This document shows, in pieces, positions 7,459 through 60,800 of a stretch of 64,000 nucleotides of DNA. This DNA comes from a virus, in the IMG/VR virus record IMGVR_UViG_3300008113_000071, positions 1 to 64,000 of that record; one strand, written 5' to 3'. Below the pieces are notes generated by a model. It made no database searches. It saw only the letters and a program-made list of their open reading frames with translations, and was not told the origin of the DNA. Position 1 is the stretch's first letter; each line of letters starts with the position of its first letter. The translations under genes were made by a program, and so were the position numbers.

Positions 7459-7496
7459 AAAAAAATACACCAGAGACTTTTACATCCCTGGTGTAT
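7459..7496 (-). terminator. Rho-independent terminator downstream of tmRNA
   Basis: On the minus strand a 9-bp perfect stem ATACACCAG/CTGGTGTAT (arms 7488-7496 and 7465-7473) is followed by a run of seven T. It begins 42 bases after the 3' end of the tmRNA and ends 23 bases before the next gene, followed by a CACACACACA leader. Confidence 0.88.
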
Positions 7497-7537
7497 AACC
7501 TTTAAACTAATGAAAACAACTCCTTGACAAGTTGTTG

Positions 7538-7892
7538 TGGAGGTGAAGAGATTCGAACTCTTGTCCTGTTGCAGCAGTTAAATAACAATTTATTACAAGC
7601 TTAGATCTAAATGATCAGTGTGAGGGATAACCAGAGGTTATCGATTCCACCAGCTAGTTTATAGTTCTAGCAAACTCAACATTTGTAATGATTCTGTTCC
7701 TAGGTTCATTACAACCCAAATAGATTAAGCAGCTACTGCTAAATCTGCTCCTACGAAAGACATTGCATCTTCGAAAGAGAAAGTTGACTTATTGTCGTTT
7801 ATTGTTTGAATGTACATTTTATAGTGCTATACCATTCATTGCACTGCTTGTTGTTAATCACTTTTATTACCCAGTCAATTCCATACACCCCC
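7538..7892 (-). ncRNA. ssrA: Transfer-messenger RNA (tmRNA), one-piece
   Basis: A phage-encoded tmRNA that would rescue stalled ribosomes and add a degradation tag. The 5' end GGGGGTG (7892-7886) pairs with CACCTCC (7545-7539) as a 7-bp acceptor, with discriminator A at 7538 and no encoded CCA. GGAATTGACTGGG follows the 5' strand, the conserved tmRNA D-region. The T-arm is AAGAG-TTCGAAT-CTCTT. AGCAGT (7848-7843) pairs with ACTGCT (7579-7574) as helix 2. Further stems include TTGTAATG/CATTACAA, GCTAG/CTAGC and GATAACC/GGTTATC. The internal reading frame ends GADLAVAA then TAA (7725-7727). The gene is followed by a terminator. Length 355 is normal for tmRNA. The RNA class is near certain; function in the phage is inferred. 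Confidence 0.93.
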
Positions 7893-7896
7893 AATG

Positions 7897-8082
7897 TTAG
7901 ATTACTTCAAATTGATCTATATCAGGATCAATACATAAACCTTTCCCTTGTCTACGCTCCCACATTATATGCATTAAACCTACACCATCAATTCTCACAA
8001 CCTTTCCTGTAGTACCTGGTTTTACAGGATCATCATAGAACATTTTAATCAGCTTAATCTTCTTTCCTACTAAGTTTTCCAT
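7897..8082 (-). CDS. DUF4314-family small protein
   Basis: A 61-residue SH3-like beta protein. The order GKKIKLI, then DPVKPGTTGKVVRIDGVG, then LMHIMWERR, then IDPDIDQFEVI matches DUF4314, whose members share the pattern PpGT.G.V..vD..g..hv.WD...L.l.pg.D.fe. The biochemical role of the family is unknown. Its stop is only 4 bases before the 5' end of the tmRNA, so the tmRNA may be cut from the same transcript or have a promoter inside this gene. Confidence 0.75.
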   Translation of the reverse strand: MENLVGKKIKLIKMFYDDPVKPGTTGKVVRIDGVGLMHIMWERRQGKGLCIDPDIDQFEVI

Positions 8083-8313: not shown

Positions 8314-8853
8314 CTATTCTTTTGTTTCTTCTTCCCATCCACAATTATTGCAGATGATTTGGTCTGATGAATTATATACTACATCTGGTGAACCACATTC
8401 ATCACAAAAAATACCATAATCATCATAATCCTCAGGATCTGCATCAGTCCAATCAACAGTGATTATAACCTTGCCTTCTGCAAGTGTTGGTTCACCTGTT
8501 TCACCATCAACATCAATCAACACAAATCCTCCCTCATAGTTAATGATATAATTAAGATCATTTAGTGTTACATCTCTTAGCTCATCAGTATCTTCCCCTT
8601 CATCAAACCAACCAATTTCATCTGGTGTGGCTAGAATAGCTGGAATGCTACCATCCATATACTCTTCAACAATAAATGGCTTCACAGGATAACCATGAAA
8701 CGTTATAAATTTCTCTTCTTCCTCAGGAGAACGAAATACCTGATCTAACTCAAATATTTCCTTCTCCTCACTGAAAGTTCTAATAAACCACATGCCTTTC
8801 TTAAGACCATCTGGTACGTATGATTTAAATACGATTTGTGCTTGAAAATACAT
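8314..8853 (-). CDS. Acidic protein with C-terminal zinc ribbon, 179 aa
   Basis: Residues 1-150 are an acidic beta-rich region of unknown family. Residues about 151-174 are a zinc ribbon with two CxxC knuckles (CDECGSPDVV and ICNNCGWEE). Zinc ribbons of this kind bind nucleic acid or protein partners; which one applies here cannot be told. The gene is the last before the hairpin at 8274-8296 and overlaps its upstream neighbour by 1 base. Confidence 0.7.
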   Translation of the reverse strand: MYFQAQIVFKSYVPDGLKKGMWFIRTFSEEKEIFELDQVFRSPEEEEKFITFHGYPVKPFIVEEYMDGSIPAILATPDEIGWFDEGEDTDELRDVTLNDLNYIINYEGGFVLIDVDGETGEPTLAEGKVIITVDWTDADPEDYDDYGIFCDECGSPDVVYNSSDQIICNNCGWEEETKE

Positions 8854-32323: not shown

Positions 32324-35300
32324 ATGGCAGACGAGTTAGATAAGATAAAAAAAATTCTTGGTGGTGATCAGAGTAATGTTGTTCCAGAATTTAACACTGC
32401 TAATACAGGTTTAAACCTTGATTTAACAGTTAATCAAATTCCTAAAGGAACTCTTACTTATGCATTAAATGCATCTTTGGAGAACTTTGATGCTAGTTCT
32501 GTTAATTATCAGAACGAGCCTGGGAATGAGCTATGCTTAAATTTCCCTGAAGGATACCAACTTATTGGTGAACACTCTATCTACGAAAAGAACAAACATA
32601 TATTCTTCTTAGCTAATCCTGTTACAGGAGGATCTGAGATTGGATATATGGATAATAATGATTGTGTATATCACACTCTTGTTAATGCTGCATGTTTAAA
32701 TTTTAACATCAATTATCCAATTCATAAAGCTGTACATAAGATTACTAATTGTACAACAGAAATCTATTGGACAGATGGGTTCAATGCTAGAAGATATTTA
32801 GATATTGATAATGTCCCTTATGTTGAATCAGCAACATCAGAGCCTTGTGATGAAAGATTTACAAATGACTTAGATTGTAATGCAATTAAACTGCAACCAA
32901 ACTTCTCTATTCCTCAATTAGAAATTATTGGAGTTAATAATGGTGGTGACTTAATTGCTGGTACATATCAATTTGCTGTACAATATTCTGATGCTACTGG
33001 TAATGGATATTCTTCATATTACTCAGTAACCAATCCAACTCCTATTGCTGATACTCAGATTACAACTCTTAACTTTAATTATCCTGTTGGTAGATCTATA
33101 GATGTTCAAATATCTAATATTGATACAAGAGGACAGTGGGAGTATTTTAATTTAGCTGTAATCAAAACAATAAATGCTATCACATCTGTAGAGTTAGTAG
33201 GAACATATTTTATTGATGAAGCAGTAAAACAGATTACATACACTGGACAAAATCAAACATTAATTAGACTAACAGTTGATGATATCTTTGAGAAGTTTCC
33301 TTATTATGAGATTGCTCAAGATTTAACTGCTGTACGTGATGTTCTTGTATGGGATCAATTAACATCTATTGATCAGATTAACTTTCAAAAGATTGCTAAT
33401 CAAATCACTCTTCAATGGCAGACATATAAACTTCCTGCTACTGAGAACTATGCTGATGAATTAAATGCAACTAACCTTCGTGGATATCTACGTGATGAGG
33501 TGTATGCATTTGAGATTGTATTCTTATTAAAGAATGGTAAACAAACAGATGGTTTCCACATTCCTGGTAGAGTAGCTAATGCAAATGATTTAAAAATAAT
33601 CTATCCTACAAATCAAGATTTTATTGGTGAACCTGATCCCATAACAGGAGGAAGTCCAACTTGGAAAATATATAACACTGCAACTGTTACTGGAGCTGGA
33701 GTGGGTGATAATATTAATAATGCCACTCCATATGAATATGGAGATTTTGCATACTGGGAATCTACTGAAACTTATCCATGTAATACAGAAGTTTGGGGAG
33801 ATCTTGTTAATCAACCTATAAGACACCACAAATTCCCTGATGTTCTTGTAAGTCCAATCTTTGAAACAAGATTATATAGAGGAATTAATGAGATGGTTAT
33901 GGGTAATAACTCTGTATTCCCTATTGGTGTAAAAGTTGATATTTCTCAAATCCTACAATTAATCTCATCTTCTGAATTAACTTTAGAACAAAGAAATGAT
34001 ATTCAAGGATTCAAAATTGTTCGTGGTGATAGAAGTACAAACAGATCAGTTGTAGCTAAAGGTATATTAAGGAATGTTGGAAAGTACACTAGAGAAAATC
34101 AAGAATTTTATTTCCCTAACTATCCATACAATGATTTAACTGAAGATCCATTCATTAATGAAAATAATAATGCATGGAGTCAGATATGTGAGACTTATAA
34201 TGTAAATATTACAGCACTACAAGTAGATCCTGATGGTGGTCCTCCATTTGCAGAATTAGAATATACAGACTGTAACTCTAATAAAACACAAAGAAAAAAA
34301 TATTACACAACTGGTTCTTTTGAGTTTTGTTCAATTTCACAACCCATAATTCTTCCACCAGCTGCAGGTGTAACAGGTGAAGCAACATATAATGTTTGGA
34401 GAATTGCTTCGACAGGAGGTTTTCAACTTTGTGGAGGATGGAGAGCTGAATGGATTGATCCATCAGGAGTAAGTCAAACTACTTATATAAATGGATGGCC
34501 TACTTATGAAAGTAGAATAATTAATGTTAAATTTGGAACTGTTCCTGCTTGTATAGAATATTGTGATCGTTGTGGAATAGTAATAGAATTTTTATATAAA
34601 GTGACTGCTTCAACAGATTGTAAAGTAGAAGTTCCACAACCACCAATCACATCTGATCCAGAAGGAAAATACAGACAGATATTTAACTCACCTGAAACAT
34701 CATTTGGTCAACCATTCTTAGGAGATGTTCTTAAGTTAGAAAGTGTAATTTTTGGTAAAGGATTGGGTCACTTTGTTCAAGTTAAAAGTAATGCTAAGTA
34801 TAAACTATTAACAGAAGAGGCTCAACAAGATGCATTAAACTCATCTAGAGAATTAGGAGATTTAACACCTGATTTTAATGCAGGAGCAATGTTTGCTGCA
34901 TATCAAGCTTATTTAACTATCTATACAAATGGTATCACAAGAAAGAATTATGCATACTCATTTAATTCTATTGCTGATTACAATTATACAAATGGTGTTC
35001 CAAATGATTTAGGAGTTAAACAAAGAGAACTTGACATTGCTCAATATTTAATTCCTGGAGTTCAATCTGTTGGAAATGATGATCTAAATATTAATAACTT
35101 CCAAAGAGAATCTTCAGTGTTCTTAAGAACTGTTGGATCAGATGGTTCTATAGCTTCTCTACCTTTCCCAGATAGAAGTCCATATATGTTAGAAGGTAGT
35201 GCTAGTATTATTACAGATAATTCTAGATTTACCATCTCAGAAATTGGTAATTGTGCAACTCCTGCAAAAGAAGTACCAATTCAGGTGGTATCTTATTATG

Positions 35301-38300
35301 CATCTGTAAAAAATATATTTATTAATCAATGGGGACAAATTTATTCTTATGATACAATTGATACTGGATTTCAGTATGTATTAGGAAGTAATGAAAGTTT
35401 AATAGCCACTGTATTTGGTGGTGATACTTTCATCAGTAGATTTGCATTTAAAACTAAACTTCCTTTCTTCATTGATAATAGAGTTAATGCTCCTGATGAT
35501 TCAGATGTATTCTATGATGAGATTGGTAATATTGCATATCCTAAATACTGGCATTCAGCTAGATCTATTTTACAAGATTATAGTTGTGATACAGGAGGAA
35601 CATTACCAACTGTTCTCTCAAATATTATTTCATACAAAGCACACAACTTTGATTGTCCAAATAGTCAAGCATTAGCTCCTGGTGCAGCAGCTGATAGTAA
35701 TCCTAATAGAACATTCTATGATGGATACTTTTATTTGTTTGCATATGGAATCCCTAACTTCTATTGTGAAACATCTTATAACGTAGATCTTCGTCAAGCA
35801 TTTAATAATAAAGAAGGTGACTTCTGGCCTCATGTAAGTACAAGTATTCCTGATGATTGGGTTCAAGAAGATTATGTATCTATCAATTTTGATAATACCT
35901 ATTATTACAATGTTACCTTCTCTAAACAAAATAAAGAAAATTTCTTTAGTCACTTACCTATAGATTATACTATAGATTTATGTGCTACTAATTTCCCATT
36001 TAGAGCAATCTATTCTGAAGCACAAACAGCTGATGCTGATAACACTGTAAACAATTGGTTAATATATAGAGCTGTATCTAAATTTGATTTTCCTCAGAAC
36101 TATGGTAAGCTTACATCTTTAGATGGTATTCAGAATAAAGCTACATTAGCTAGATTTGAGAATAAGTCTTTATTGTATGGTACATTATTAACAATTAATA
36201 CAAGTAATCCACAAGCTGCATATCTTGGAAATCCATCATTATTTGAGTCTGCTCCTCCTGTTGATTTTGCAGAAACTGATCTTGGTTTTGTTGGTTCTCA
36301 AAATAAAATGTTATTAAAGATTCCTCAAGGGCAAATAAGTATTGATGCTAAAAGAGGTCAAGTTTTCTTAATTCAAGGAACCCAAGTTAAAGATATTTCT
36401 CAGTTTGGTTCTGGTATGAACAGGTTCTTTACAGAACATTTAGCATTTGAGATTCTTAAATACTTCCCAGAAGTAGATACAGATAACCATTTTACTGGTA
36501 TTGGATTACATGGAACATTTGATAGTAAGTATGATAGAGTGTTGATCACTAAACTTGACTATGTTCCTAAAACAAAAGATGTTAAATATGATCCTGTAAC
36601 TAAAGAGTTTTATATTGAACACATCTATCCAGGAAACTGTGGTGGTAATACAACAACTACAACTTCTAGTTCTACTAGTACAAGTAGTTCTACAAGTACC
36701 ACTACAAGTACTACAACATCAGGTGGTGGTCCAACTACAACTACCACAACCACTACAGTTACTTGTAATGAATACGAACTTCCTGGTGGTGAAACAGGAT
36801 ATACATACAATTTTACTAATTGTTTAGGAAATCCTCAAACTGTTGTAGTTCCTGCTGGAGATCAATATGGAGAATGTGCTTTAGGTTTCCCTGGTGGCCC
36901 AGCAATATTAGTTGGTCCTTGTACACCAACTACAACAACCACTACAACATCTATTCCTGACATAAGTTGTTTCACATTAACTTACTTAAGTCCTTATGGT
37001 GCACCTACAACTTGCTTAGGTGAAGAGTTAGAGATATTTGGTGGATATTATAGAATTGCATATACTGGTGGACCTTATGTTACTGCAGATGTAACTATAA
37101 CATATGATATAACTAATGTTGATGGTTGTGATAGTTCAACAACTTATACAACTGGATCTCAAACAATCACTGCATTTACATCATATGTAGACTTTTTATT
37201 TATAGAGTCAACTCCTCAAGATTGTCCTCCTGACACTCCTTGTAGAACTTACGTTTCATCAATAGGAGCAATTGTTGGTTCAAGTATACCTTGTTCTGAA
37301 TTTACAACAACCACTACTACTACCACTCTTGTTTCTCCACCAATGATGTTTAATAGTATTTCAGAAGGGGCTCCTAGATTGTTAACAGTTCAAACAACTA
37401 CAACTTGTCCTCCAATTATTATTAGAGAAGTTGTTTATCTTACTGATTTAAATTACTTCTGTAATAAATCTTGGAGTTTATCTTACAACTTAAATACAAA
37501 CAGCTGGATTAGTTTCCACAGTTACATTCCTAATTTCTATGTAGCTGAAAACAATTTCTTCTATTCAGGATTAAATGATTGCTGTTCTGTAATTGATGCT
37601 ATTGTTGCTGAGGTGTTACCTGAACCAACTACTACTAGTACAACAACTTCTAGTACAACAACCACATCTAGTACATCTACAACATCTACAACCACTACAA
37701 GATTTGCTGGTTGTGATTTAGCAGGTGAAGCAGAAACTCTTGATTGTACTTTACAAGGTGTTGCTATTGATATTACACCAACAACTACTACAACAACAAC
37801 AGTTCGTCCTGAGATTGCTGCAGTACTTCTATTTGTAGATGAAGAATTACTTTGTAGTGCAGATAATACAACAACTCCTACAGCAATTATCTACTTGCCA
37901 GTTACATCTCCTTGGTTTGTATTAAATGGATCTAGTGAGTTAGTACTTGATAACACATGTCCAATTTCTTCATTCCTAAGTGAATATGTAATTACACCTG
38001 CATCATTTGCTAGTTACACTGTAAGTTCTCAATCTGTTTCTACTGATCCTCCATTATATATTGAGAATATAAATTTTGTTGTAAATGAAGCAAGTTTATT
38101 AGATTCAGCAAGTGAAAACATTATAGTAACAGTAGTTAGTGGTCTTGCATCAGCTATAGGTTGTCCATGTCCTACAACTACAACAACAACTAGTAGCACC
38201 AGTAGTAGTACCACTACAACAACCACTACAGCAATTCCAAGCATGTCTTGGGTGATGGGAAATGGTGGAACTGGAAGTGGTAGCAGTGGAGCTGCTTGTG

Positions 38301-39520
38301 GAACATCTATTGGTGGCCCATTATTATATTCAGGAATCCCTTACACAGGAACTGGTAGCATATTCTATACAGATGCTTCATTAACCACTCCATTTAATGG
38401 AGGTAGTTTATGGTATAAACTTTATAATACTGCTGGTGGATATGAAGTGATTGTACAAATTAATTCTTCTGGTGTAGTGATAGATAGTACTGGTTGTACA
38501 ACAACTACTACTACCACAGGTGCACCAACAACCACCACAACTACCACTCTACAAATAGTAGATTTATGTTGCTCAATTGATGGATCTCCAGAATCAGCAT
38601 GCTTTACACAAGCAGCATTTTCAGGAGAAACATGTGCTGATTTTGGTTACTTTGATTGCACCACTCCAGGTGGATGTGATCCAACCACCACTACCACCAC
38701 TACAACTGCAACTCCTACAACAACCACTACAACTAGCAGCACAAGCACAACTACCACTACAACTACAACATTAGCACCAATAGAGTTATGTTGTTCAATT
38801 GATCCATCTCCAGAGACACCATGTTTTACACAAGGTGCAACAGTAGGACAAAGTTGTTCTGATTTTGGGTATTTTGATTGTACTAATCCAAGTGGTTGTA
38901 CACCACCATTTACAACAACAACTACTACCACTACTATTGGTTTTGATTATTATCTAGCAGATAGATATACATGTGATGGTTGTACAGTTAATAGTGCATC
39001 AACTGGAGTTTGTTTTCCAACAGGTACTAGTGTAACTATTGGTAAGTTTTATGATTCTTCATCTTATTATGGATTGTATACTTATCAAATTACTGCATTA
39101 AATCCAGGTGGTACAGGTATGGATGTCATATTAGAACCACTTGAATATAATACATGTTTATTAGGTTGTGTAATAGATCCACCACCAACAACAACAACTA
39201 CCACAACTGTAGCTCCTACAACAACAACTACAACTACAGCAGGACCTACAACCACAACAACTACAACTGTTGCACCTACAACCACAACAACAACTACAAC
39301 ATGTCTTCCTGCAGGAACATTTATAAATCAATTCTGTGTAGATTGTGCATTATATTATACTTTAGCAAATGGAACTTGTGGTACATATGATGAACTTCAA
39401 TCAATTGATTCATCTGAATGTGGACCAGGTTGTGGACCAACTCCAGGAGTATGTTGTGATTGTGGATATGGATGTGAGTGTGGGTATATAACATGTGATT
39501 TTGGATGTTTCCCTTGCTAA
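32324..39520 (+). CDS. Giant tail muzzle / modular poly-Thr adhesin, 2398 aa
   Basis: Residues 1 to about 1440 resemble the crAss-like muzzle / P22 gp10-like tail protein: repeated beta segments with propeller-like character (NLDLTVNQIPKGTLTYALNA, KAVHKITNCTTEIYWTDG, KNKHIFFLANP). This part would close the tail end. From about 1441 the protein becomes a chain of roughly ten poly-Thr or Thr/Ser linkers separating short Cys- or beta-rich modules, two of which are tandem copies of one Cys-rich domain, and ends in a Cys-dense tail (CCDCGYGCECGYITCDFGC). The chain is probably the host-binding arm. Thr runs may be O-glycosylated or simply stiff spacers. The boundary at 1440 is my estimate. Confidence 0.75.
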   Translation: MADELDKIKKILGGDQSNVVPEFNTANTGLNLDLTVNQIPKGTLTYALNASLENFDASSVNYQNEPGNELCLNFPEGYQLIGEHSIYEKNKHIFFLANPVTGGSEIGYMDNNDCVYHTLVNAACLNFNINYPIHKAVHKITNCTTEIYWTDGFNARRYLDIDNVPYVESATSEPCDERFTNDLDCNAIKLQPNFSIPQLEIIGVNNGGDLIAGTYQFAVQYSDATGNGYSSYYSVTNPTPIADTQITTLNFNYPVGRSIDVQISNIDTRGQWEYFNLAVIKTINAITSVELVGTYFIDEAVKQITYTGQNQTLIRLTVDDIFEKFPYYEIAQDLTAVRDVLVWDQLTSIDQINFQKIANQITLQWQTYKLPATENYADELNATNLRGYLRDEVYAFEIVFLLKNGKQTDGFHIPGRVANANDLKIIYPTNQDFIGEPDPITGGSPTWKIYNTATVTGAGVGDNINNATPYEYGDFAYWESTETYPCNTEVWGDLVNQPIRHHKFPDVLVSPIFETRLYRGINEMVMGNNSVFPIGVKVDISQILQLISSSELTLEQRNDIQGFKIVRGDRSTNRSVVAKGILRNVGKYTRENQEFYFPNYPYNDLTEDPFINENNNAWSQICETYNVNITALQVDPDGGPPFAELEYTDCNSNKTQRKKYYTTGSFEFCSISQPIILPPAAGVTGEATYNVWRIASTGGFQLCGGWRAEWIDPSGVSQTTYINGWPTYESRIINVKFGTVPACIEYCDRCGIVIEFLYKVTASTDCKVEVPQPPITSDPEGKYRQIFNSPETSFGQPFLGDVLKLESVIFGKGLGHFVQVKSNAKYKLLTEEAQQDALNSSRELGDLTPDFNAGAMFAAYQAYLTIYTNGITRKNYAYSFNSIADYNYTNGVPNDLGVKQRELDIAQYLIPGVQSVGNDDLNINNFQRESSVFLRTVGSDGSIASLPFPDRSPYMLEGSASIITDNSRFTISEIGNCATPAKEVPIQVVSYYASVKNIFINQWGQIYSYDTIDTGFQYVLGSNESLIATVFGGDTFISRFAFKTKLPFFIDNRVNAPDDSDVFYDEIGNIAYPKYWHSARSILQDYSCDTGGTLPTVLSNIISYKAHNFDCPNSQALAPGAAADSNPNRTFYDGYFYLFAYGIPNFYCETSYNVDLRQAFNNKEGDFWPHVSTSIPDDWVQEDYVSINFDNTYYYNVTFSKQNKENFFSHLPIDYTIDLCATNFPFRAIYSEAQTADADNTVNNWLIYRAVSKFDFPQNYGKLTSLDGIQNKATLARFENKSLLYGTLLTINTSNPQAAYLGNPSLFESAPPVDFAETDLGFVGSQNKMLLKIPQGQISIDAKRGQVFLIQGTQVKDISQFGSGMNRFFTEHLAFEILKYFPEVDTDNHFTGIGLHGTFDSKYDRVLITKLDYVPKTKDVKYDPVTKEFYIEHIYPGNCGGNTTTTTSSSTSTSSSTSTTTSTTTSGGGPTTTTTTTTVTCNEYELPGGETGYTYNFTNCLGNPQTVVVPAGDQYGECALGFPGGPAILVGPCTPTTTTTTTSIPDISCFTLTYLSPYGAPTTCLGEELEIFGGYYRIAYTGGPYVTADVTITYDITNVDGCDSSTTYTTGSQTITAFTSYVDFLFIESTPQDCPPDTPCRTYVSSIGAIVGSSIPCSEFTTTTTTTTLVSPPMMFNSISEGAPRLLTVQTTTTCPPIIIREVVYLTDLNYFCNKSWSLSYNLNTNSWISFHSYIPNFYVAENNFFYSGLNDCCSVIDAIVAEVLPEPTTTSTTTSSTTTTSSTSTTSTTTTRFAGCDLAGEAETLDCTLQGVAIDITPTTTTTTTVRPEIAAVLLFVDEELLCSADNTTTPTAIIYLPVTSPWFVLNGSSELVLDNTCPISSFLSEYVITPASFASYTVSSQSVSTDPPLYIENINFVVNEASLLDSASENIIVTVVSGLASAIGCPCPTTTTTTSSTSSSTTTTTTTAIPSMSWVMGNGGTGSGSSGAACGTSIGGPLLYSGIPYTGTGSIFYTDASLTTPFNGGSLWYKLYNTAGGYEVIVQINSSGVVIDSTGCTTTTTTTGAPTTTTTTTLQIVDLCCSIDGSPESACFTQAAFSGETCADFGYFDCTTPGGCDPTTTTTTTTATPTTTTTTSSTSTTTTTTTTLAPIELCCSIDPSPETPCFTQGATVGQSCSDFGYFDCTNPSGCTPPFTTTTTTTTIGFDYYLADRYTCDGCTVNSASTGVCFPTGTSVTIGKFYDSSSYYGLYTYQITALNPGGTGMDVILEPLEYNTCLLGCVIDPPPTTTTTTTVAPTTTTTTTAGPTTTTTTTVAPTTTTTTTTCLPAGTFINQFCVDCALYYTLANGTCGTYDELQSIDSSECGPGCGPTPGVCCDCGYGCECGYITCDFGCFPC
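36646..39303 (+). repeat. Poly-threonine linker repeats in the adhesin
   Basis: About ten runs of 6-8 Thr, often with Ser (near 36646-36760, 36927, 37303, 37624, 37777, 38171, 38500, 38680, 38911, 39187), made of mixed ACA/ACT/ACC codons and no ACG that I saw. The last block (39187-39303) is four near-repeats of a 10-residue unit of seven or eight Thr plus a V/A-P or A-G-P step. Coding-strand composition is C/A-rich. Confidence 0.85.
38564..38902 (+). repeat. Tandem Cys-rich module (two copies, 222 bp apart)
   Basis: Copy one starts at residue 2081 (38564) and copy two at residue 2155 (38786). Both follow LCCSID.SPE..CFTQ, then G..C.DFGYFDC and P.GC, about 40 residues with six Cys at matching positions. 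They are separated by a Thr-rich linker. The DNA copies are clearly similar but diverged, so the duplication is not recent. Confidence 0.85.
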
Positions 39521-46496: not shown

Positions 46497-48863
46497 ATGG
46501 CTTCATTCACAGATAAAATACCACAGTTTAATCCCTACGTTCAACAATTGCCTGTTCAGGCGATGGTTGAAGTTGGTATGGAAAAACAACGTCGTTATGA
46601 TGAGGGTGTTCAAAAAATACAAGCAAGTATTGATAACGTTGCTGGATTAGATATTATTAACGAAACACAAAAAGTATATCTACAGTCTACACTCAATCAA
46701 TTAGGATCTAATCTAAAGATGGTTGCTGCTGGTGATTTCTCTAATTATCAATTAGTTAATTCTGTTTCAGGAATGTCTACACAAATTATTAAAGATCCAG
46801 TTATTCAAAATGCTGTAGCTTCAACTGCTAGATATAAAAAAGGAATTGCTGATAGAGAAGCATATAAGAAAGAAGGTAAAGATTCTCCTTCTAATGATTT
46901 TATATTTAATCGTGCAGCAAGTCAATTTATAAATAGTAAAGATGTTAATGCACAATTCTCAGCTAGCTATGATCCTTATGTTAATTGGAAGAAGAATAGC
47001 TTAGAGGTTATTAAAGCCTTAGCTAATGATTCAACTATTACAGATGATGCTTTTACAACTGATGCTAATGGAAACTTAGTTATCACTGATGCTCTTGTTC
47101 GTAAAAAGATGTCTGGTATCTCTCCTGAGAAAATTCAACAAGCTCTTCTTTCTACACTAACTCCTGCTGACTTTAAACAGATGCAGACAGATGCTATTTA
47201 TAATTACTCTAATCAGGATGCTGATCAGTTTAAAATTAGTATAAATAACTCTTATACAGATAAGTTACAAGGTTATTCTCAACAGATATCAACATTACAA
47301 AACTCTAAACTATCTACTACATCAAACGTAGAGAAACAAAAAATAGATCTACAAATAGCATCTCTTAGTAAAACAGTAGCTAATCTTACTAAGGAACAGA
47401 GCAACTTAATTGGAATGATTGATTCTGATAACTTAGATGGAGCTAAAGCTCAATTTGGTACATTCAATTCTATCAATGGAATAGCTAAATCTTTTTCTCA
47501 TTTAGAAGTTTCTCAAACTTATGAAAGTAGTCCTCTTGCTGATATGCAAATGCGAAGAGAGATTAAAGAACAAGCTCATCAAGAATGGCTAGATAAGTTT
47601 AATCAAGATGAAAGATTCCATGCTGATGATCTTGCTGAAAAAAGAGAAGCTAATAGAATAGCTAAACTTGCAACAGAAGGATATGGAGCTCTTCCAGCAG
47701 AAGTTGAACAAACTGATCCTAAAGTTGTTCTTGCTGATGTTGTTACAAGTATTGAAGTTGGAGATAAAGAATTAGGAACTTATAAGAATCAATTCTTAAA
47801 AGAGCAAGGTAAAGATCAGAAATGGTTAGACCAACAACAACTTGCTTGGGAGAAAAATCCAAATGGAGTTGATGCCACTGTTTCAAAATACTTTAATGCT
47901 GTAGCAGATAAACAAAGAACGATTGATGCTAATAAAACCATGCTTAGTAACATTAATGCAGAAGCTGATGAAAAATTTGGATCACTTGATGATTTTATTC
48001 CTAAGAATGCACCAAATGTAATATACGCTACAAAGAGTGGACTTAGAGAAGTTTATACTCCAAAAGACTTTGTTGATTTTAATGCTAAGTTTAGTAGATA
48101 CGTTGATTATAGTTTACCAGCAGGAAAAGCTGCTAATCGAACAAAAGTTTATTTAGATGATAAAGCTAAAGCTGAACTATCTCCAAAGGAGTATAGATTA
48201 TATGAGATCTTAAAGAATCCAGCAGCAGCTGAAAAAATGGTAGGAAATAAAACGCTATTAGATAATTTAATTAATTATGGTAAAGTTATAAATCCAACTT
48301 ATCAAAAAGTTGTTAAAGAAAGAAACGATTTTACAGCTCAACAGGTTGCTGATAGATTAACTGGAAGTCAAGGTGCATATTATACAATTCCAACAGCAAG
48401 TGCTGAACAAAGAGATTCTATGGCTGGTTTGATAAATTCATATATTTCAAGAGCAGCAAAACAAACAGGTGGTGTTGCAATATCTCCTGAATGGGATAGT
48501 GAAATAGCTAAAGCATTAATTCTTGATCCAAAAGCAAAATTTCTTATTAAATTAGTAGAAGGAACAGAAGCAAGACCTGTTAAATATGAAATTGTTGGAG
48601 CTGGTGATGCAGGTAGAATTAGGTTTAATATGACAGCACAAGAAAAGATTGCTGTGTTTGAAAATAGATTTGAAGCTAGTCCTGCTGTTAGAATGATTAG
48701 ACCATATATTCCTTATCCTAGAAATAAGTTTCTTAGTGAAGAAGCAGTTGCTCCAGCACTTATTACAATGACTGATGCAGCAATCTATGAATTACTAAAT
48801 GATGTTCCTCCTTCAGCAGCAGAATTACAAAAATTAAAACAAGCTAATAAAAAACCTTTATAA
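46497..48863 (+). CDS. Virion cargo protein, 788 aa
   Basis: A 788-residue, mainly helical protein with Lys/Gln/Asp/Asn-rich composition and coiled-coil-like stretches (LQGYSQQISTLQNSKLSTTS, KQKIDLQIASLSKTVANL). There is no signal peptide or catalytic motif that I recognise. Its stop overlaps the start of the giant RNA-polymerase gene (TAATG), so the two are made together. In crAss-like phages the gene next to the polymerase encodes a virion protein ejected with it, and this is the likely role. Confidence 0.6.
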   Translation: MASFTDKIPQFNPYVQQLPVQAMVEVGMEKQRRYDEGVQKIQASIDNVAGLDIINETQKVYLQSTLNQLGSNLKMVAAGDFSNYQLVNSVSGMSTQIIKDPVIQNAVASTARYKKGIADREAYKKEGKDSPSNDFIFNRAASQFINSKDVNAQFSASYDPYVNWKKNSLEVIKALANDSTITDDAFTTDANGNLVITDALVRKKMSGISPEKIQQALLSTLTPADFKQMQTDAIYNYSNQDADQFKISINNSYTDKLQGYSQQISTLQNSKLSTTSNVEKQKIDLQIASLSKTVANLTKEQSNLIGMIDSDNLDGAKAQFGTFNSINGIAKSFSHLEVSQTYESSPLADMQMRREIKEQAHQEWLDKFNQDERFHADDLAEKREANRIAKLATEGYGALPAEVEQTDPKVVLADVVTSIEVGDKELGTYKNQFLKEQGKDQKWLDQQQLAWEKNPNGVDATVSKYFNAVADKQRTIDANKTMLSNINAEADEKFGSLDDFIPKNAPNVIYATKSGLREVYTPKDFVDFNAKFSRYVDYSLPAGKAANRTKVYLDDKAKAELSPKEYRLYEILKNPAAAEKMVGNKTLLDNLINYGKVINPTYQKVVKERNDFTAQQVADRLTGSQGAYYTIPTASAEQRDSMAGLINSYISRAAKQTGGVAISPEWDSEIAKALILDPKAKFLIKLVEGTEARPVKYEIVGAGDAGRIRFNMTAQEKIAVFENRFEASPAVRMIRPYIPYPRNKFLSEEAVAPALITMTDAAIYELLNDVPPSAAELQKLKQANKKPL

Positions 48864-51800
48864 TGGCTGATAATACTCCTATCCCCCCTTTAGTTGACAG
48901 AACAGCATTAGAAGATGCATTTGGTGGTTACGAACCACAAGGTGCTCCTGCTGATTTACCCAATGTAGCATTCAGAGGATTAGATAAGTCTAGTGCTACT
49001 GCAGGCACAGGAGAACCTGTATCTATATTAGATGCTCTAGAGAATAGTCTTACATCTATGCCTAGCAGTGTTAAGCTAACAGGTGGTGGTATTCCTAGAA
49101 GTATTGCTGAATTAACTTCTTCTAGATACAAAGCATATGTTCCTGGTGATTATAATAACGAGGATGCATATGCTCAAGGACAGGGATGGACTGAGAAAAT
49201 GGTTAATAGTGTTGGTAAAGGATTACTACTTGCTGGTGGTACATTTTTACAAGGCACTGTTGGTTTAGTTAATGGTGTTGGTAGAGCTGCTATTGATGGT
49301 AGAGCTGCATCATTCTATGATAATCCTGAGAACAGAGCATTAGATGATTTATATAAATGGTCTGAAGATTTTGCTCCTGTATTTCAAACTGATGCTTATA
49401 AAAATTTAAACTGGTATAGTCCTTCTAAATTATTTTCAGCAAACTTCCTATGGGATGGTATTGTTAAGAACTTAGGATTTGCTGCTGGTGCTTATTTATC
49501 AGGAGGTGTATATGCAGCTGGATTAAAAGCATTACCATTAACAGCTAGATTATTCTCTGTTGGAAAAGCAGCAGAAGCTCTTGCAGCTACAGAACAAGGA
49601 TTACTTGGTGCTAATAAAGTTGCAGATACATTTGGTAAAATTAAAACATTATCTGATAGATTTTTAACATCATATAAACTTTCAAGTGTTGGTGGTAGAG
49701 CATTAGTTGCAGGACTTTCTACAACTGGTGAAGCAGGATTTGAAGCTGCTGCAAACCTGAATGCATTTAGAGATAAAAAAATTCAAGAGTATGTAAGTAC
49801 ATATGGTGCAGAACCAGATGGAGAAGCTCTTGCTCAAATTAATAGAGAAGCTGAAGCAGTAGGTAATACATCATTCTTATTGAATGTTGGTTTATTAACT
49901 GCTACCAACTATATTCAATTCCCTAAGATTCTTGGTTCTTCATATAAAGCTGAACGAGGAATGGTTAACAATTTAACCAAAGAGATTGGAGAACTTACTA
50001 CAGATGAAGCTGGTAAATATATTGCAGCTCCTAGTAGATTAGGAAAAGTATTAGGAACTCTAAACAAAGCAAGACCTTATATCTTCTCTGCTTCAGAAGG
50101 ATTTGAAGAAGGTTCACAATATGCAATCCAAATTGGAACACAAGATTACTATAACAAGAAAAGTAATAACGAACCAACTACTTTCTTAGATAGTTTAAGT
50201 GAGGGTATTACTCAAACCTTAGGAACTAACGAGGGTATGGAGAATGTTCTTATTGGTGGTTTGTCTGGTGCTATAATGCAAGCAAGAGGTAAGTTCTCTC
50301 AAGGAAGAGAAATAACTAAAAACACAGCTGCTGCAATTGAACAATTTAGTAAATTTAAACTATCTGACTTTAGTAAGGATACAATTGATTCTGTAAACAG
50401 AGGAACAACTATCCAAGAAGAAAGAGAACAACAGTTAAAAGAAGGTAATGTTGCTAACAGTAAAGATCTTGAAGCTGATTACATTATCAACTATTTAACT
50501 CCTCGTATTAAGTATGGTAGATTTGATCTTGTAAGAGCAGAGATTGATGATTACAGAGCACTAGCTTTAACTGATGCTGGCTTTGCACAATTACAAGCTG
50601 AAGGTAAAGCTCTTGCTACAGATACAAAAGAACAGTATTTAGAAAGATTAAATGGCTTAGAAGCTACAGCTAATAATGTTAAATCATTATACCAATCACT
50701 AAACCTTCGTTATGGTGGTATGGTTAACTCTAAAGGTGAAGAAATTTATTCATCAGATGTGATGGATAAGATGGTTTATGCTGCATCTAAAGTGGCTGAC
50801 TATGATAAACGTATTCCTCAATTAACTAGTCAATTAACTGACACTAGTATTGATGTAATGGGTATTGTTGATGAACTTGTTAATGATAAGAAGTCTGATA
50901 AGTTTGATGCTGCAATAGTTGAATTAGAACAAGGAAAAGCAATCACTGCAGAAGAAGATATTCAAACATTACAAGATATTGGAAAACTTTCTCTTCGTAG
51001 AGATTTATTCTTAAATGAATATAGTGAGTTAAAGAAAAGTCCTGAGAAGTTTAAGGAACCAGAACCTCTTGCAGAAACTGCTAAAGTTCCTGGAGCACCT
51101 GTAGAAACTGTTACCATCAAAACAAAAGATGGTGATGAAGATATTGAGGTGGGCACAGAATACTTCCTAGGTAAAGTTACTGAATATAGTGCTGAAGGAA
51201 GTGAGGTTTATCGTTTTCCTACACTAACTATTGTTGGAGAAAATGAAGATGGTACAGTTCAAATTAAAACCTCTACAGGTGAGATTAGAAATGTATCTAA
51301 AGATGTATTAGCTGATTACAAACTTGGAAAGGTTAGTGATACGCTAAACAATAAGAAAGCTAAATACTTCATGGACAACATCAATACCATGTTTGAACAC
51401 TATGGTATTAAAGATAAAGATGGTAAACCTGAAGTTGGTAGATTAGAATACTCTCTAAAGAAAGATAAACTTGTATTTGTATACAAAGATGATAGTGGTA
51501 AGATTGTAAGAAGAGAAGTATTGAACACTATGTTCAAAGCTGCTGAAGGTTACAGAGATGCAATGGTTCGTGAGATTGGTAAGCTTACAGCTACTCAAAC
51601 AGAATCTAAGAAAGCTTTTGTTGAAGACACTACTACAATGTCTGACAAGCTTAGAGTTAGAAACCAGATTGTTACTGACTTATATGAGAACAGTGTTAAA
51701 CGTGTTCAAGAGATTGAAGATAAATTAACAAAGAATAGAGAGAAGTTAAATGAGATAGCTGATTCTTTAGATGCTGCTAGCAAAACTAAAGATGGTAAAG

Positions 51801-54800
51801 ATCGTAAGAGAATTACTAAAACTTTAAAGAAATCTATTAATGAACTATCTTCTTTACGTAACAATATTGAGAAAGAGAACAATGCACTATTAGGTGAGAA
51901 GAATGAATTGGAAGTTAACATTCCATTATTCAAAAACTTTATTGATGAGTTAGCTTCTCTTCCTGAAGATAGTAAAGAGTTTGTTGCTCAGTTAAAAGAT
52001 GATGTTTCTACTTTTGAAGATTTAATTGACATTACTAACGATGCTATTAAATCTAATAACACTTTATTACAGGACATAGACAAAACATTATCTGATGCTC
52101 TATCTGTCTTTACTGATTACATCAAACGTTTAAGAGAAGAGAATCCTGGTATTCCTTTGTTCATGGATGAATTGGTTGCTAAGCTTGAGAAGTATCAAGG
52201 TGAAGAAGGAGCAAAACAATTTATTGCTGAACGATTAGGGTTTACTGATTTAGTTGCAGATCTAGAATCTGATATAAATGATTTCTCAGCAGAACTTAAA
52301 CTTCCTGAGCTAACAGCTAAAGCAGATAAACTATCTAATGATATCAAGGAACTAAGAAAAGGTCTTGATGATTTAGTTACTCAACAGATTGCTAGAAGAA
52401 ACATTCTAGATGCATTTGAAGAGTTTGTAGAAAAACAAAAACAAATTAAGCTTGAAGAAAATAAAATACAAGCTGATAAACAATTACTAGCACAGTTCTT
52501 AGGAACTATGGATAACAGTGTTCAGAATAATCCTGAACCAACTAAAGGTTATGAAGCTGCTAGCAAGAAACCTTGGCAATCTGTTGTAGGTGGAACTGTT
52601 GCTCCTGGATATAAAGATGCTGAAAAGTCTTTCAATAAAAGAGCTAATAACTTTGGATTTAAGTTTAATAGTTTAGAGAACAAAGATTCTATTCGTGGTG
52701 TAGTTGTAACTAATGCTACACAGGATCAAATCATTCCTGGATTAACAGAACACTTAATTGGTGAGTCTGGTTTAGATCCTAAGACTGTTATTGCTTTAGT
52801 AATGGTTCAGGAGAACAAAGATGGTTCTTATACATTAGTAGATGAGAATGGTGTAGCTATTCCTGAAGGAGCTGACTTACTTAACACTGCTATCTTCCAA
52901 GTGTTTCCAACTGAAAAGTTAGAAGCTACTTATGATGGTAAGAAAGAAAGTATGTTCAGAGAAACAACTCCTGAATATGTAGAAGCTTCTTTAAGAGAAC
53001 AATATACTGGTTGGAGAGAGAATGAATTAAAACAAACTCAATTAGGTCAGCCACAAGGTATCACTGCTTCTTTTGGTATTCCTCAATATGTAACTAGATT
53101 AAATGAAAAAGGAATAGAAGAAAGAAACTATGATGCTAGAGTTTCTGCAGAAGAAGCTGGTTTAGTTGATTCTGAAATGTTAACAGAAGAACCAGTAATC
53201 GCTGTAGCTACAAATAATACCTCTATAACAAATGGTTCTGTTACATTCACTACACCTCTTGGACGTGTGTTCTTACAGATTCCTGGAGGCTTAGCTAAGT
53301 TATTTAATAGAAAGTTTAATAGCAAAGAAGCTAATACTATCTATGATGTAATTCTTCAGTTGACTAAGAATGCTGTTACAGATGGTGATATTAAAACTGA
53401 AAAATCTCAACGATTAATCAATTGGTTAAAGTCTACAGTTTATTGGGGTATTGCTAAAAATCAAGCTGGTGAAAGAATACCTGCTGGATATAATAACGTA
53501 TGGTTTGAAGAAGTTAATGATGAAGATGGTAAACCTGTAACTAAGTTATATATTTCAGGTAAGGGTGAAGGATTTGAATTTACTCCAACATCATTGGAAG
53601 AAAACAAAGGTGAGATTGTTACATTGTTACAAAACATGTATAACAATACTAATGCTACAATGGTTAATCAAAATGCATGGAACAATCCATACTTTGAAAT
53701 AACTGGTATTGATAGCAATGGTGAACCTATAACTAAGAAGTGGGACAACTACCAAACATACTTATTATCTTCTGAAGGAAGAACTAATGAAGAGATTCCA
53801 TTAGCTACACAATTCAAACCAATCACTGATACAGCTCCTGTAAATAGAGTGGGTATTTATTTTACATTAGATACAACAGTTGATGATTATGTAGTTCCTC
53901 AGAGTGCTCCTGTTGTAACACCAATGGAAGAAGCTCCTAAAGCTCCTGAACTTCCTACAGAATTTTTTCTTGCTCCTAAAACTCAACCTGAAGCTAAATC
54001 AGTAGAAGCTCCTAAACAAGAAGGATTTGTATTAGATGGTGTTAAAGAAAATACTGTTCAACTAGGAACATTTGGTGCTGTTACATTTACATTAGATGGT
54101 AAATTGTACAATGAAACTAATGGTGATAAAGGATTTAATCCTACCATTCCTGCATCTGTAACAGAGGCTGTAATGAAAGCTAAAGATGTTACTGAAGAAA
54201 AAGCACAACAAATTATTGCTGCATCTGTTATTGCTAAGGTGGCTCCACAATTAGAATCAATGAAGCTTCCTGTTGTTGAACCTATTGTAGAGTTTACAGA
54301 AGAAGAGAATGATGAGTGGAATAACTCTGCTCCTAATACACCAGATGATACAGCTTATCGTTTACAATTAGTAAAAGAAGCTAAACAGTTTGACACTGAA
54401 ATCTGGCCTAAGGTAGAAGAGTTCTTGAGAACTAAATTCCCAATGCTTCCTATATACAGAGTGAAGAATGTTATTCAGGCTACTAATGGTAGACAAGCTT
54501 TTGGTATGCTTCATAATGCTGCTATCTACTTACAAGAGAATGCTCAGGTAGGTACAGTTTATCATGAAGTGTTTGAAGCTGTATGGAAGATGTTTGCTAC
54601 TCCTGAAGAAAAGACTGCTTTAATTAAAGAGTTTAGAAACAGAGAAGGAAGTTACACTGATAGATTTACAGGTGAGGAGATTAAATACTCTGAAGCTACA
54701 GAAGCTCAATTAAAAGAAGAGATTGCTGAAGAGTACAGAGACTTTGAATTATTTGGTAAAGCTCCAGATAGATCTAATGGTAAATCTTTAATCTCTAGAT

Positions 54801-57800
54801 TATTCTCTGATATAGTTAACTTCTTCAAAACATTCTTCACTGGAAAGAATGCAGCTAATAACACAGAAGAGTTATTTAAAAAGATGAGCAGTGGATATTA
54901 TGCAGAAAACTATAATCCATACATTGCTCCATTATCTTTTGCTAACGTTGGTGTAATTGATATACAAGATGCTTTTGGTGGTCCTGATGCAGAATATAGA
55001 TTAGAAACCATTCCTGCTACACAGGTTAATGAGATCATGCAACAAATGACTTATAGCACTCTTACTGATTTAATTAAAACAGATAAGAGCTTATTCACTA
55101 TTGCTTCTGTCAACAAGAAAGAACTATATGAGAAACTTCAGAAGGAACTTCTTGAAATAGTTAGATGGAAAGGATCACAATATGAAAGTGCTGCAGCTAA
55201 AGGTGAATTAACTAATGAGGAAGCAGCTCGTGAGGTGGGTAACTTAAAAACTCTTTACAAGAATATCAAAGCTGATTGGAATGATATTATTGCTAAACAT
55301 CAAGAATACTTAAAGACTTATTCTATTGAGTTTGATGAGAACGATAATAGTATTCTTACTGATGAGAATAACTCAGGTAAATCTGATTACCAAGCTGCTA
55401 ACAAAATTGATTCATTCAGAAGAGCTAATAGCGCAATTAAAATCTTATTAGCAACTCTTCCTGTAACTGAAGTTACTAATGAAGGTGTTAAGATTAAACG
55501 CTCATCTATTGGTGGTGCTGTATTAATGCCTTCTGATCAAGTGTTTATTAACTTGATGAATCAATTACATGATTCAACTAATGTTGATGATATGTTTGAT
55601 AGATTAAGAACTATGGCTTTGGGTAATCCAAACTATGCTTCTCTATACAAACGCTTAACTAAACTTGCTCCATCTGAACAAGTTGATTTTAGTAAACTTG
55701 ATGATACTGGATTGCAATTAGTTTCTGCATTCTGGAAATCATTCAAGAGACAAAATGCTGATGTTATATCTGTGTTTGTTCTTCCTGAAGGAGATATTGT
55801 TATTAGTGATTCAACCTTATCATCTGCAGCTAAACAATCTAAACGTGATATGACTGCTAACTTGATTAATACAATCAAGGGTGATAACAAGTATGTTAAA
55901 TATGATCCAAAGACATTTAAGTATAATGCATTAGGAGCTATTAATAATGTACAGTTTACTGGTTCTCAATTAAATGGATACACTGACTTCTTAAAGAATC
56001 TAGGAATTGAATTTGATATTAAGGCTGTAAGAAAGCTTAATGATGATCAATTAAAAATGTTTAGAAAAGCTGTAGAAGGATTAAAAACAAGTATTTCTCA
56101 AATAGAAGATGTAGCAACTCTTTCTACAAAAACTTTAAACATTGATGGTCGTATGTTAGAGCTTGGTACTATTCAAGCTATAATTGAAAACCCTACATTT
56201 GAATCTACATATTTTAATATCAATGGTGAACGTACACAGAACTTCATTGGTACAAATGCATTAAGTGGTTTATACGATGTTCTTTCTAAGATAGATAACA
56301 TTAATGATCTAGCAGGTACAGAATATGCTTTCCTACTTACTGATGTATTTAGTAAAGGTAATTCTAGTGTGATGTTAAACAAGATGTTTAATATTGCTAA
56401 GTCTGGTGGACGCATTAAAGGTAGTGAAGAATTTATGAAACCTGTATACATTGATGGTACAATCAATGAACAAAAAGGTAAGAGTAAAGAATCTTCTAAA
56501 CTTAATTACAAAGAACGTCTCATCCAAGAGATCAATCTTAACTTATCAGGATTCTATCTTAATCTTGTTCCTGGAGATGCATCTATGGAATGGGCTATTA
56601 AAATGCACAAAGAGGAATCTCCTTTTGTAACTGAAGAATCTTATTTAACAAAAGACTATCTTAACATATTCAAGAACTACTTCATCTCTGAGGTGGAACT
56701 TGCTAGAGATGGTCGTAAGACAGTTAAACCAGAAAACAGTAAAGACTTACGTTTCTTCAAAGCTATTCTTGGTGATGCTTTACACAAGCAAATCATGACC
56801 AAGGCTAATCTTAAACTTTCTCCTGAGGAAGTATATGAGAATAACAAGAAAGAAATTAATGCTGCTGTAGAAGAGTTTATTAAAAATGATGCCCAAGATA
56901 CTCGTGAACTACTTGCAGGTTATGGAGCTATTGGGTATGATGAAGATGGTTTGTATGTAGAGAACCTTGCATTTGGTGATAACATCACTGAGCAATCATT
57001 GAACACTAAATTACAATTGCTTTCTGTTAACTACATGATTGCAAACATTGAAATGCATAAGCTTGTTTATTCTGATCCATACCAGTATTCAGATGAGTTG
57101 AAGCGTATTAAGAACTTTAACTCTCCAAGACAACCTCTTGTGTATGGTTCTAAAAAGATTAACGCTGCATTTAATAAACAATATAACAAAGGATACTCTA
57201 AAGATGATATTGGTTACACTGATATGAATAGAGATGTATTCAGATCATCTGTAATCAGTGATGTATTTACAGTTGGTAGTCTTCCTGGATATGAAATTCC
57301 ATTTGAAGAAACTGATGGTGGTGGTTACATCTCATCAAAAGCTAATCGTATTTTTGGTATTCGTTCTGGTGAATGGACTGAGGATAATGAAAAACAATAC
57401 AGATATGATGTAGCTTGGGAGAAACGTGATAAAGGATTTGATTTATCTAAAGATGAACAACTTCTTTTAGCACAAGGTAATCCTAATGTAAGAAGTACTT
57501 ACACTCCAAGAAAACCTATTGTATCTGGAAGTAAAGCTGATGGTAAAAACTATAATGATATTGTTCTTGATAAGTTTGCATTAGTTCCTCTATCATATCG
57601 TCTTCTAAAAGAAATCAATGCTGATTCAAATGCAATTAAGTTGTATGAGAAAATGCAAAGAGACGATGTTGATTATGTAGTTTACAACACTGGTAGAAAA
57701 GTTGGAGCTGGTATAACTACTCCATTATATAATGAAGATGGTTCATTTAATAATAATCCTTTCGAAGAAATAAACAATATTCCATTTGCTATCATGGGTG

Positions 57801-60800
57801 TACAAACAGAGGTGCCTTCTAAAGATACTCCTCTTGTTACTCGTGGTTCTCAAATCACTAAGCTTGTTACACTTGACTTCTTAGAAGCTGGTATGCCTAC
57901 TGACTTTGAAGCTGATGGAGATTTTGATTCTCGTTTTGCTAAATGGATCACTCTTGATGAAAATAAAAAATTAGAGTCTTCTGAGATTTATAAATTAATC
58001 AAAGAGAACCAAGATTTATTAGTTGCTAAAACTGAAGCAGATTACCAAACTCTTATTAAGAAACTTGGCATTCAACAAACTGTTGTAAATGGTAAGAAAG
58101 CATTTGTATTAGGAGATGTAGATAAATTAATTGATACATTACGTGATGAGATATTAAAGAGAGAGGTAAATGAAAATATTACTGATGCTCTTAATGGATT
58201 TAAACAAGGTGATGTTGTATTAGAAGCTACTCCTGCATACCAACAAATCAGAAACATCTTATATTCGATTGCAGATAAAACTGTAGTTCGTCCTAAGATC
58301 TCTGGTGGTTTGAAAGTTCAAATTCCTTCTACACTATTAGAATCAACTCGTGTTAAAGGTAAAGAGTTTACTGATAAAAATGGTAATGTTAAATACTCTT
58401 ATGAGTCTAATAATTTAAAATTCTATACTAACAAAGAAGGAAAACGTATTTGTGAGATTATGGTTGGTAGATGGTTCAAGTCAGATAAGACTGATGCAGA
58501 ACTTCTTAAATACTTTAATGATACTCCTGAAGGACAAAAGGTTCTAGAAGGAATTGGATTTCGTATTCCTACACAAAAACAAAACTCTATTGATTCATTT
58601 GTTATTAAACAATTCCTTCCAGAAGAATTTGGTGACTCAGTAGTTATTCCTTCTGAACTTGTAAGAAAAGTGGGATCTGACTTTGACATAGATAAACTTT
58701 CTATCTACTTGAAAAATATTTATGTAGATGGTAAAGGTGATATTAAAGCTGTTCCATATTTTGGTATTGGTGAACAAGCAAAAGCTAAGTTTGCTGATAT
58801 GTTTGATAGAGGTGAGTTCTTAACTGAAGAACAAGTTAAACAACTAGACAGATATATTAATGAAGAGAGAGAAAGAGAATTTGATTTAAATTCTCCTGAA
58901 GCTAAATTGATTAGAGATATATTCCCAGAAGCATTTACTGATGAAGCATTTGCAAAAGAGTTTATAGCTGATCTTGCTAAGAAGGGAATGAAAGAAGGTA
59001 TTGTTGATAACATGTATGTTAAGTCATTAGAGAATCAATACATCCAATCTTTACAAAACCTAGTATCTCATGAGTCAAACTTTGATAACTTAATCAAACC
59101 AAACTCTGCAGACCAATTAAAAGATCTTGCAAAAGACATTAACAAAAAACTTGGAAGAGAAGAAATCGATTACTCTTCTGTAGGAAACATGTTACATAGA
59201 TCATTCATGTCTAGACTAAGACAAGATTTTGTTAGTGGTAAATACGCTATTGGTATTGCAGCTGTTTCTCAAACAAACCATGCTCAGAATCAACGTGCTG
59301 TTATGTACATTGATACTGATAGATTAAAAACTAAGAACATCAGTGAAGCAGATAAAAAATGGTTAGGTGATGGTCAAATTAAATTAAAAGAATACAATTC
59401 AATATTTGCTAAAGATAAAAAGAGACCTACACTTTCTATGATTAAGAATGCTGCAGGTGAATACATCTCTGATATCATTGGTCAATTCATTGATGGTTAT
59501 GTGGATATATCTAAAGGTCCTTGGATCATGGAACTTGGTGCTACACCTAATGTTGCATCTACATGGTTGTTCTTAACTAAAATTGGTGTTCCCATTAAGA
59601 CCACTGCGTATTTCATGAACCAACCAATTGTTCGTGACTACTTACGTACAGTGGAAAGTGCTGGTTACTCATGGTTATTCATTGACAACTTTGTTGATGA
59701 CATGATGGAAATCTACACTCCTCAAGAAGATATAACAGTTACAGAACTTCCTAATGAGGCTGGACTTGGTGAAATGATTGGTAAGAAAACTAGTCAGCTA
59801 AGTAATACTCAAAAGGCACAACAACAATTAATTCTAGAAGAGTTCTTGAAATATGCTAAGATGGCTGAGCATTTGTTCCAAGTGACGCAAGGTTCTAACT
59901 TTGACACTGCAACAATCAATGATCCATATTTGGTATTCAAGAAACAAATGCAATTGAAGAAAGCACAGAATACAATTATTTCTTCTGTTGATGACATTCT
60001 AGATAAATCATTCATTGGATCATTAAAAGATATTATCTATGATGTTAGAGATGCGTTCTCAACAATATTAATATCTGATAGAACATCTGATGATACAAGT
60101 AAGATTTCTGTAAGAGATGTTATGGAAGCTGTATTAGCACCATATACAGATCTTAGTGACAGAGACTTTGTTAAAGTGTCTCAGAAAGCTGTAGCTGACT
60201 TATTTGATTGGGCTGTACAAACAGATACAAAATTAAATAACTTTATAACTAATGCACTACTTGGAACTGACACTTATGAAAGTGCAGCTAAGAAGGTTAT
60301 TGAATACAGAGATAAAGTGCTAAAAGATGAAAGCCATCCTTTACATGATAACTTAATTATCAATTCAATTAAACTAGAACCTGGTTCTAAAAATGGAAAA
60401 CCTGATAACTTGTATATTGCAGGAAGAGATAATAAGGTGTATAATCAGAACCAGACTATAGCTGCATTTCGTGAGCTAAGAGAGCAGTTAAAAGCTGAAG
60501 GTAGTGATTTGTATGGTAGACTAGTTAGACTTGCTGTAATCCAATCTGGTACAACTACATCGCCTATATCTTTTACATCTATTCTTCCTTATGAAGATTT
60601 TAAAGCATATTATAATAAAACTTTGTCAGAGTTAGAAAATTTACCTAACTTAGATGAATTTTATAATCTTCATGTACTTGAGAGAAACAATTGGAATAAT
60701 ACAGACATAGTTCCATTCAAACCATATACATTAATTAAAAATAAAAAGGGAGAATTATTTAATCCAAATATGGCATTTGTTGCTAAGAGATTAGTAGGAG

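Follow-up and report, generated by a model that had tools for sequence, protein, structure and literature searches.

The locus described here raises the question of why a crAss-like phage would maintain an ssrA (tmRNA) gene of its own. Phages of this kind are among the most abundant human gut viruses, and little is understood about how they take over translation. The gene lies in a virus record of 98,433 bp (IMGVR_UViG_3300008113_000071), the first 64 kb of which, a stretch of 64,000 nucleotides, were analysed and are referred to as the window. An initial annotation had described a complete one-piece tmRNA on the early strand of a crAss-like genome and had proposed that it reprograms ribosome rescue during infection.

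The tmRNA gene and its phage genome

Comparison of the window with all Rfam models using cmscan returned a single match: the minus strand at 7892-7535 fitted the tmRNA model RF00023. This significant covariance-model match extended over model positions 1-374 of 374, with a score of 72.9 bits (gathering threshold 47) and an E-value of 2e-26. In the searches of related and named phages, many weak RF00023 rows were discarded, as they covered only about 17 model positions (the T loop) and resembled tRNAs. ARAGORN, which had been recommended as a second check, found neither a tRNA nor a tmRNA anywhere in the genome, within the window or beyond it. The program recovered 8/8 bacterial tmRNAs used as a control, gave no match for the tmRNAs of the window, contigs G049 and G004, and the Flavobacterium phage, and began several long phage tags too late, so that they were shortened. 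Because clear relatives were missed and tags curtailed, its silence on the window is regarded as a problem of sensitivity. ARAGORN is the tmRNA finder in common phage annotation pipelines, and the frequency of such genes is therefore underestimated. Using blastn, the window tmRNA had no match in the phage records and no close match in 395 Bacteroidota genomes, where fragments of 25-39 nt were aligned.

The features of the locus, listed 5' to 3' along the minus strand, are as follows.

7897..8082, minus, upstream ORF of 61 aa with DUF4314 (PF14192, E=2.3e-9)
7535..7892, minus, tmRNA gene, one-piece form (RF00023 at full length; covariation)
7886..7892, minus, acceptor stem 5' strand GGGGGUG, including G3 (7/7 pairs with 7539-7545)
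7846..7851, minus, helix 2, inner 5' strand ACAAGC (complement of 7595-7600)
7807..7845, minus, pseudoknot 1 (H-type), AGUGC/GCACU and UGAAUG/CAUUCA (found by script)
7797..7801, minus, frame-setting sequence UAAAC, directly 5' of the resume codon (E. coli equivalent UAGUC)
7725..7796, minus, tag frame with resume codon GAC, peptide DNKSTFSFEDAMSFVGADLAVAA and stop UAA (codon-level constraint)
7685..7717, minus, pseudoknot 2, GGGUU/AACCU and GUAAUG/CAUUAC (stem order kept in relatives)
7626..7671, minus, 3' domain stems GCUAG/CUAGC and GAUAACC/GGUUAUC (sequence; predicted fold)
7595..7600, minus, helix 2, inner 3' strand GCUUGU (complement of 7846-7851)
7546..7562, minus, T arm AAGAG-UUCGAAU-CUCUU (5/5 pairs; compensated pairs across phages)
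7539..7545, minus, acceptor stem 3' strand CACCUCC (pairing; covariation)
7465..7496, minus, intrinsic terminator-like hairpin of 13 pairs followed by a U run, downstream of the tmRNA

Each element named in the initial annotation was present, namely the 7-bp acceptor, the D-region GGAAUUGACUGGG, the T-loop, helix 2, the internal stems, the tag frame and the terminator, and the reading as a complete one-piece gene was thereby upheld. The alanine identity pair G3-U70 was found in the window tmRNA, as in all 16 distinct phage tmRNAs compared, and helix 2 of the relatives reads ACAUGC/GCAUGU and similar. The two pseudoknots flank the tag frame and were identified, together with the changed pairs in relatives, by script and hand reading: pseudoknot 1 was returned by script for the window, G004 (AGUGG/CCACU) and G082, and pseudoknot 2 retains an identical stem order with changed pairs in G082, G011, G029, G074 and G087. 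Ahead of the tag, the A at 7800 corresponds to A86 of E. coli; the role of the five-nucleotide element preceding the resume codon has been described (PMC2481249). The tag comprises 23 codons (GAC AAU AAG ... GCU GCU UAA). Position 7538, at which the initial annotation had ended the gene, is the discriminator base A73 and the mature 3' end. The gene does not encode CCA, the next letters being ACAA, and many of the sampled Bacteroidota tmRNAs likewise lack it. Since the DUF4314 ORF stops 4 nt ahead of the tmRNA 5' end and the strong terminator-like hairpin lies downstream, the tmRNA is probably released by cleavage of a longer transcript, and the arrangement suggests a transcript shared with this ORF and cut by RNase P.

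The phage is crAss-like by homology of its muzzle, portal and terminase proteins, as had been proposed. A giant ORF at 32324-39520 (2398 aa) matched the crAss muzzle protein family PF25731 at its start (E=8.7e-33, best stretch residues 24-319), and a second giant ORF of 4145 aa occupies 48863-61300. The TerL and portal proteins shared 26-40% and 22-29% identity, respectively, with those of crAss-like phages and Leptolyngbya phage Lbo-JY46, and both assignments were also supported by PHROGs. The nearest terminase was that of Lbo-JY46 (40%), an unclassified member of the Caudoviricetes in which a search for RF00023 and RF04321 found no tmRNA, followed by that of Cellulophaga phage phi17:2 (31%). 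In the genome collection the DNA polymerase had a sole relative, encoded on a contig of 79 kb in a Lacinutrix MAG and matching at 31%.

tmRNA genes in related phages

A DNA-polymerase search provided 202 relatives, of which 80 were kept. Among the 16 kept relatives of at least 100 kb, eight carried a tmRNA, and in the other eight both the standard and the permuted form were absent; the gene, missing from half of the long relatives, is thus dispensable in this group. Where tmRNA and polymerase could both be placed (12 relatives, two of these placements assuming a circular genome), they were always on the same strand, with the tmRNA 1.2-8.8 kb upstream. Homologues in other crAss-like phages, for which the initial annotation had advised a search, therefore exist at a similar place, and the tmRNA strand is that of the replication genes.

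Named phages were searched as well. An identical tmRNA, named in none of the annotated records, is carried by Flavobacterium phage FPSV-S29 and by 28 further phage records of F. psychrophilum (FpV4-type). Cellulophaga phage phi14:2 (Crassvirales, Steigviridae) has an unannotated tmRNA at 46.0 bits, just below the cut-off of 47, beneath ORFs since removed by RefSeq. The Cellulophaga phages Calle_1, phi38:1 and phi40:1 (Pervagoviridae) have a one-piece tmRNA with a tag of 30 aa. The permuted tmRNA model RF04321 was matched in 7/8 named Suoliviridae tested (five above cut-off) and in 21/23 near-complete relatives of cr124_1, of Suoliviridae type (15 above cut-off); in cr272_1 and cr273_1 the gene is already annotated as SsrA in RefSeq. 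Searches with RF00023 and RF04321 found no tmRNA in three Intestiviridae or in crAss001, DAC15 and cr111_1, and the gut Steigviridae tested had none. The initial annotation did not know the tmRNA as a standard crAss-like gene; in view of the long relatives, phi14:2 and the Suoliviridae-type genomes it is not exceptional.

Several further observations were made on these genomes. On phage contig L006, whose tag is nearly identical to that of the window, a GOLLD RNA (RF02032, 250.6 bits, positions 8423-8844) lies beside the tmRNA and a tRNA array. In L091-L097, L111, L191, L192 and L235, which have NAQIEANM-type and related tags, a conserved CAGAGAGATAACTG...AAACTAAGGTGAA at tmRNA positions of about 40-85 replaces a recognisable pseudoknot 1, the exceptions being L093 and L096. 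The Suoliviridae L237-L243 and L325-L345 have the circularly permuted two-piece gene, and their presumed Bacteroidota hosts have the one-piece form. The cr124_1 terminase (L148) contains four in-frame stops in the standard code and reads through if TAG encodes an amino acid; the tmRNA tag of this phage terminates in TAA.

The contig is known from metagenomic data only, and an assembly artefact or bacterial contamination might be suspected. Such an origin is hardly credible, as contigs L010 (from nearly the same phage) and L011 share the flanking sequence and portions of this tmRNA with the window, the arrangement is common to independent relatives, and none of the 395 Bacteroidota genomes gave a close match. 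In L010, an exact 139-nt deletion (L010:1587-1898 compared with window 7674-7812) takes out the tag and pseudoknot 2 and retains the tRNA-like domain; with no clear microhomology at the junction, it may be a real variant or an assembly error.

A phylogenetic tree constructed without the tags, in which 40 host tmRNAs were included, is indicative only, as the alignment is short and partly open. In this tree the phage tmRNAs were not nested among those of the hosts. One group comprised 14 phage tmRNAs (support 87/81). Four more, of which at least one is from a myovirus, formed a separate group although they carry tags close to that of the window. Given that ssrA is a common integration site (PMC11915505), the gene could be a relic of a host ssrA acquired, for example, at such a site and now without function. 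This is very improbable, since the gene is intact, occurs at a similar place in half of the long relatives, does not nest, with the other phage tmRNAs, among the 40 host tmRNAs, and is under selection in both its stems and its tag.

Conservation of stems and tags, and the proposed role

Selection on the stems was apparent when 16 distinct phage tmRNAs were compared: the 12 pairs that make up the acceptor and T stems were 99.5% paired, with 33 double-sided changes. The covariation score was 0.511, against 0.144 for shuffled alignments, and was reached by 0/500 shuffles; when the pairing register was slid, covariation was lost and no register came near the true score. The compensatory changes that the initial annotation had looked to related phages to supply are thus found. 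The resume signal is likewise kept: 17/18 phage one-piece tmRNAs listed have UAA and two bases followed by a codon starting with G, the exception (x_G087) having CAAAU.

The constraint on the tag was computed among the six tags of the window type, which form 15 pairs. None of the 15 pairs had a second-position codon change, and pooled pN/pS was 0.21. Five of the six tags are from contigs outside the DNA-polymerase relatives, and one of those five, of the type represented by G084 and G088 and with the G081 tag, has a baseplate wedge and a terminase that are T4-like. The window tag is constrained as a peptide and evolves like coding sequence; it had no similarity to other frames of the phage genome.

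These results bear on the possibility that the RNA is a decoy that binds SmpB and blocks host trans-translation. Phage DS6A provides a precedent, an RNA with a tRNA-like domain only that was proposed as an SmpB decoy (PMC4131195), and the L010 variant, which has lost the tag and kept the tRNA-like domain, would be in line with it. The explanation is improbable for the window, which, unlike DS6A, has a conserved tag frame; full-length copies keep the tag frame, resume signal and stop under selection, and a decoy needs none of these.

The gene at 7892-7535 (minus) likely encodes a working phage tmRNA, judging from its sequence and that of its relatives, and its plainest role would be additional ribosome rescue and clean-up during host mRNA decay. 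Host RNase P would excise the tmRNA from a polycistronic transcript, a host enzyme would add CCA and host AlaRS would charge the RNA, and host SmpB and EF-Tu would bring it to ribosomes stalled on broken mRNAs during infection. Use of the host SmpB is presumed because a search of 20 phage records found none, save a 19-bit match riddled with stops. The stalled product would then receive (Ala)DNKSTFSFEDAMSFVGADLAVAA and be released at UAA. The -VAA end should remain a ClpXP-type degron, and the rest of the tag, which is long, conserved and unlike that of hosts, probably modulates the handling of tagged proteins.

Phage tags are unlike those of the sampled Bacteroidota, the likely host phylum. 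The phage one-piece tags have 23-45 residues, versus 9-10 in the sampled Bacteroidota, where those of Flavobacteriaceae are mostly GENNYALAA; across tmRNAs in general, a length of 10 is the most frequent (PMC11915505). A standard one-piece tmRNA scored above cut-off in 50/51 sampled genomes of this phylum, to which the isolate hosts belong; the assertion that host bacteria already have ssrA holds for this sample, in which it was checked. Three tag types recur among the phages, STF(S/T)FEDAMSFV.ADLAVAA, NAQ(I/V)EANM... and DYT. The FpV phage tag reads ...AFSLIREDVAVAA, and the permuted Suoliviridae tags, of 13-15 aa, share the DYT motif (e.g. GNINVVDYTGLQEAA, GNVNNIVDYTNVA). Most phage tags terminate in a hydrophobic residue and AA ([VILM]AA), from which degradation by ClpXP is likely, though not certain. 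Departures are found in phi14:2 (AMVA) and Calle (VGV), and as these lack the AA end, degradation may not be the common purpose.

With the window tag so far from those of hosts, the earlier proposal that the phage tags proteins differently is viable. In this reading, the main purpose of the gene is a different tag that moves tagged proteins out of their usual host handling, by engaging a different protease or adaptor, by slowing decay or by way of a phage partner. It is compatible with a working tmRNA and is quite possible, if short of probable. The length of the tags and their constraint as peptides argue for it, as do the near-identical tags of crAss-like phages and a myovirus (T4-like baseplate and terminase) whose tmRNA bodies occupy separate places in the tree, the NAQIEANM type common to crAss-like, FpV and Pervagoviridae phages, and the DYT type common to gut Suoliviridae. 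Against it, most tags keep the degron-like end, neither a partner protein nor an alternative protease is known, and RNA folding or translation efficiency could explain part of the constraint. As the reason for the long conserved tag, the data fit simple rescue capacity as well as tag reprogramming.

A broader reading, possible but less likely than not, is that Bacteroidota phages maintain a tmRNA family of their own, in which the long tags are phage peptides kept by selection and exchanged among unrelated phages. During infection, truncated proteins would then receive a C-terminal signal that the phage specifies and that carries a fate of its own, rather than a host degradation tag. That fate may be an altered protease or adaptor, localisation or regulation. 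The occurrence of tmRNA with non-host tags in many crAss-like phages offers a concrete, testable handle on why phages have ssrA, and isolates with such tmRNAs exist in the FpV4-type phages of Flavobacterium psychrophilum and in Cellulophaga phi14:2.

Comparison with known ssrA systems

The window gene resembles bacterial ssrA (RF00023) in its G3-U70 acceptor, T arm, helix 2, pseudoknots around the tag frame, UA-type signal 5 nt ahead of a resume codon starting with G, and stop codon. It differs in its 23-codon tag, which bears no resemblance to host tags of the GENNYALAA type, in its position within a phage gene block 4 nt after an ORF, and in a body diverged from the sampled Bacteroidota tmRNAs.

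About 2% of phage genomes are already known to carry a tmRNA, and the window gene is a further member of this class. Those of mycobacteriophages Bxz1 and Wildcat, Bacillus phage G, the pelagimyophages and Melnitz (PMC4131195, PMC9004378, PMC7474061) are phage-borne as in the window but belong to other lineages, and that of Melnitz is two-piece whereas the window gene is one-piece. In the literature searched on crAss-like and flavobacterial phages, no crAss tmRNA was described, co-mentions seeming incidental by title and term count; the frequent occurrence of tmRNA in crAss-like phages, in two gene forms and with conserved tags of their own, appears to be undescribed there. The Calle tmRNA was annotated previously (PMC8776804). 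Together with those of phi38:1 and phi40:1, the tmRNA of Calle_1 resembles that of the window in being one-piece, with a long tag, in a phage of Flavobacteriaceae, and clusters with crAss-like tmRNAs, but these phages are of another family and their tag ends in VGV. The permuted tmRNA of Suoliviridae (RF04321, e.g. cr273_1) is, as in the window, a crAss-like ssrA with its own conserved tag and an acceptor of the G3-U70 type; unlike the window gene, it is circularly permuted and two-piece, with a shorter tag of the DYT type.
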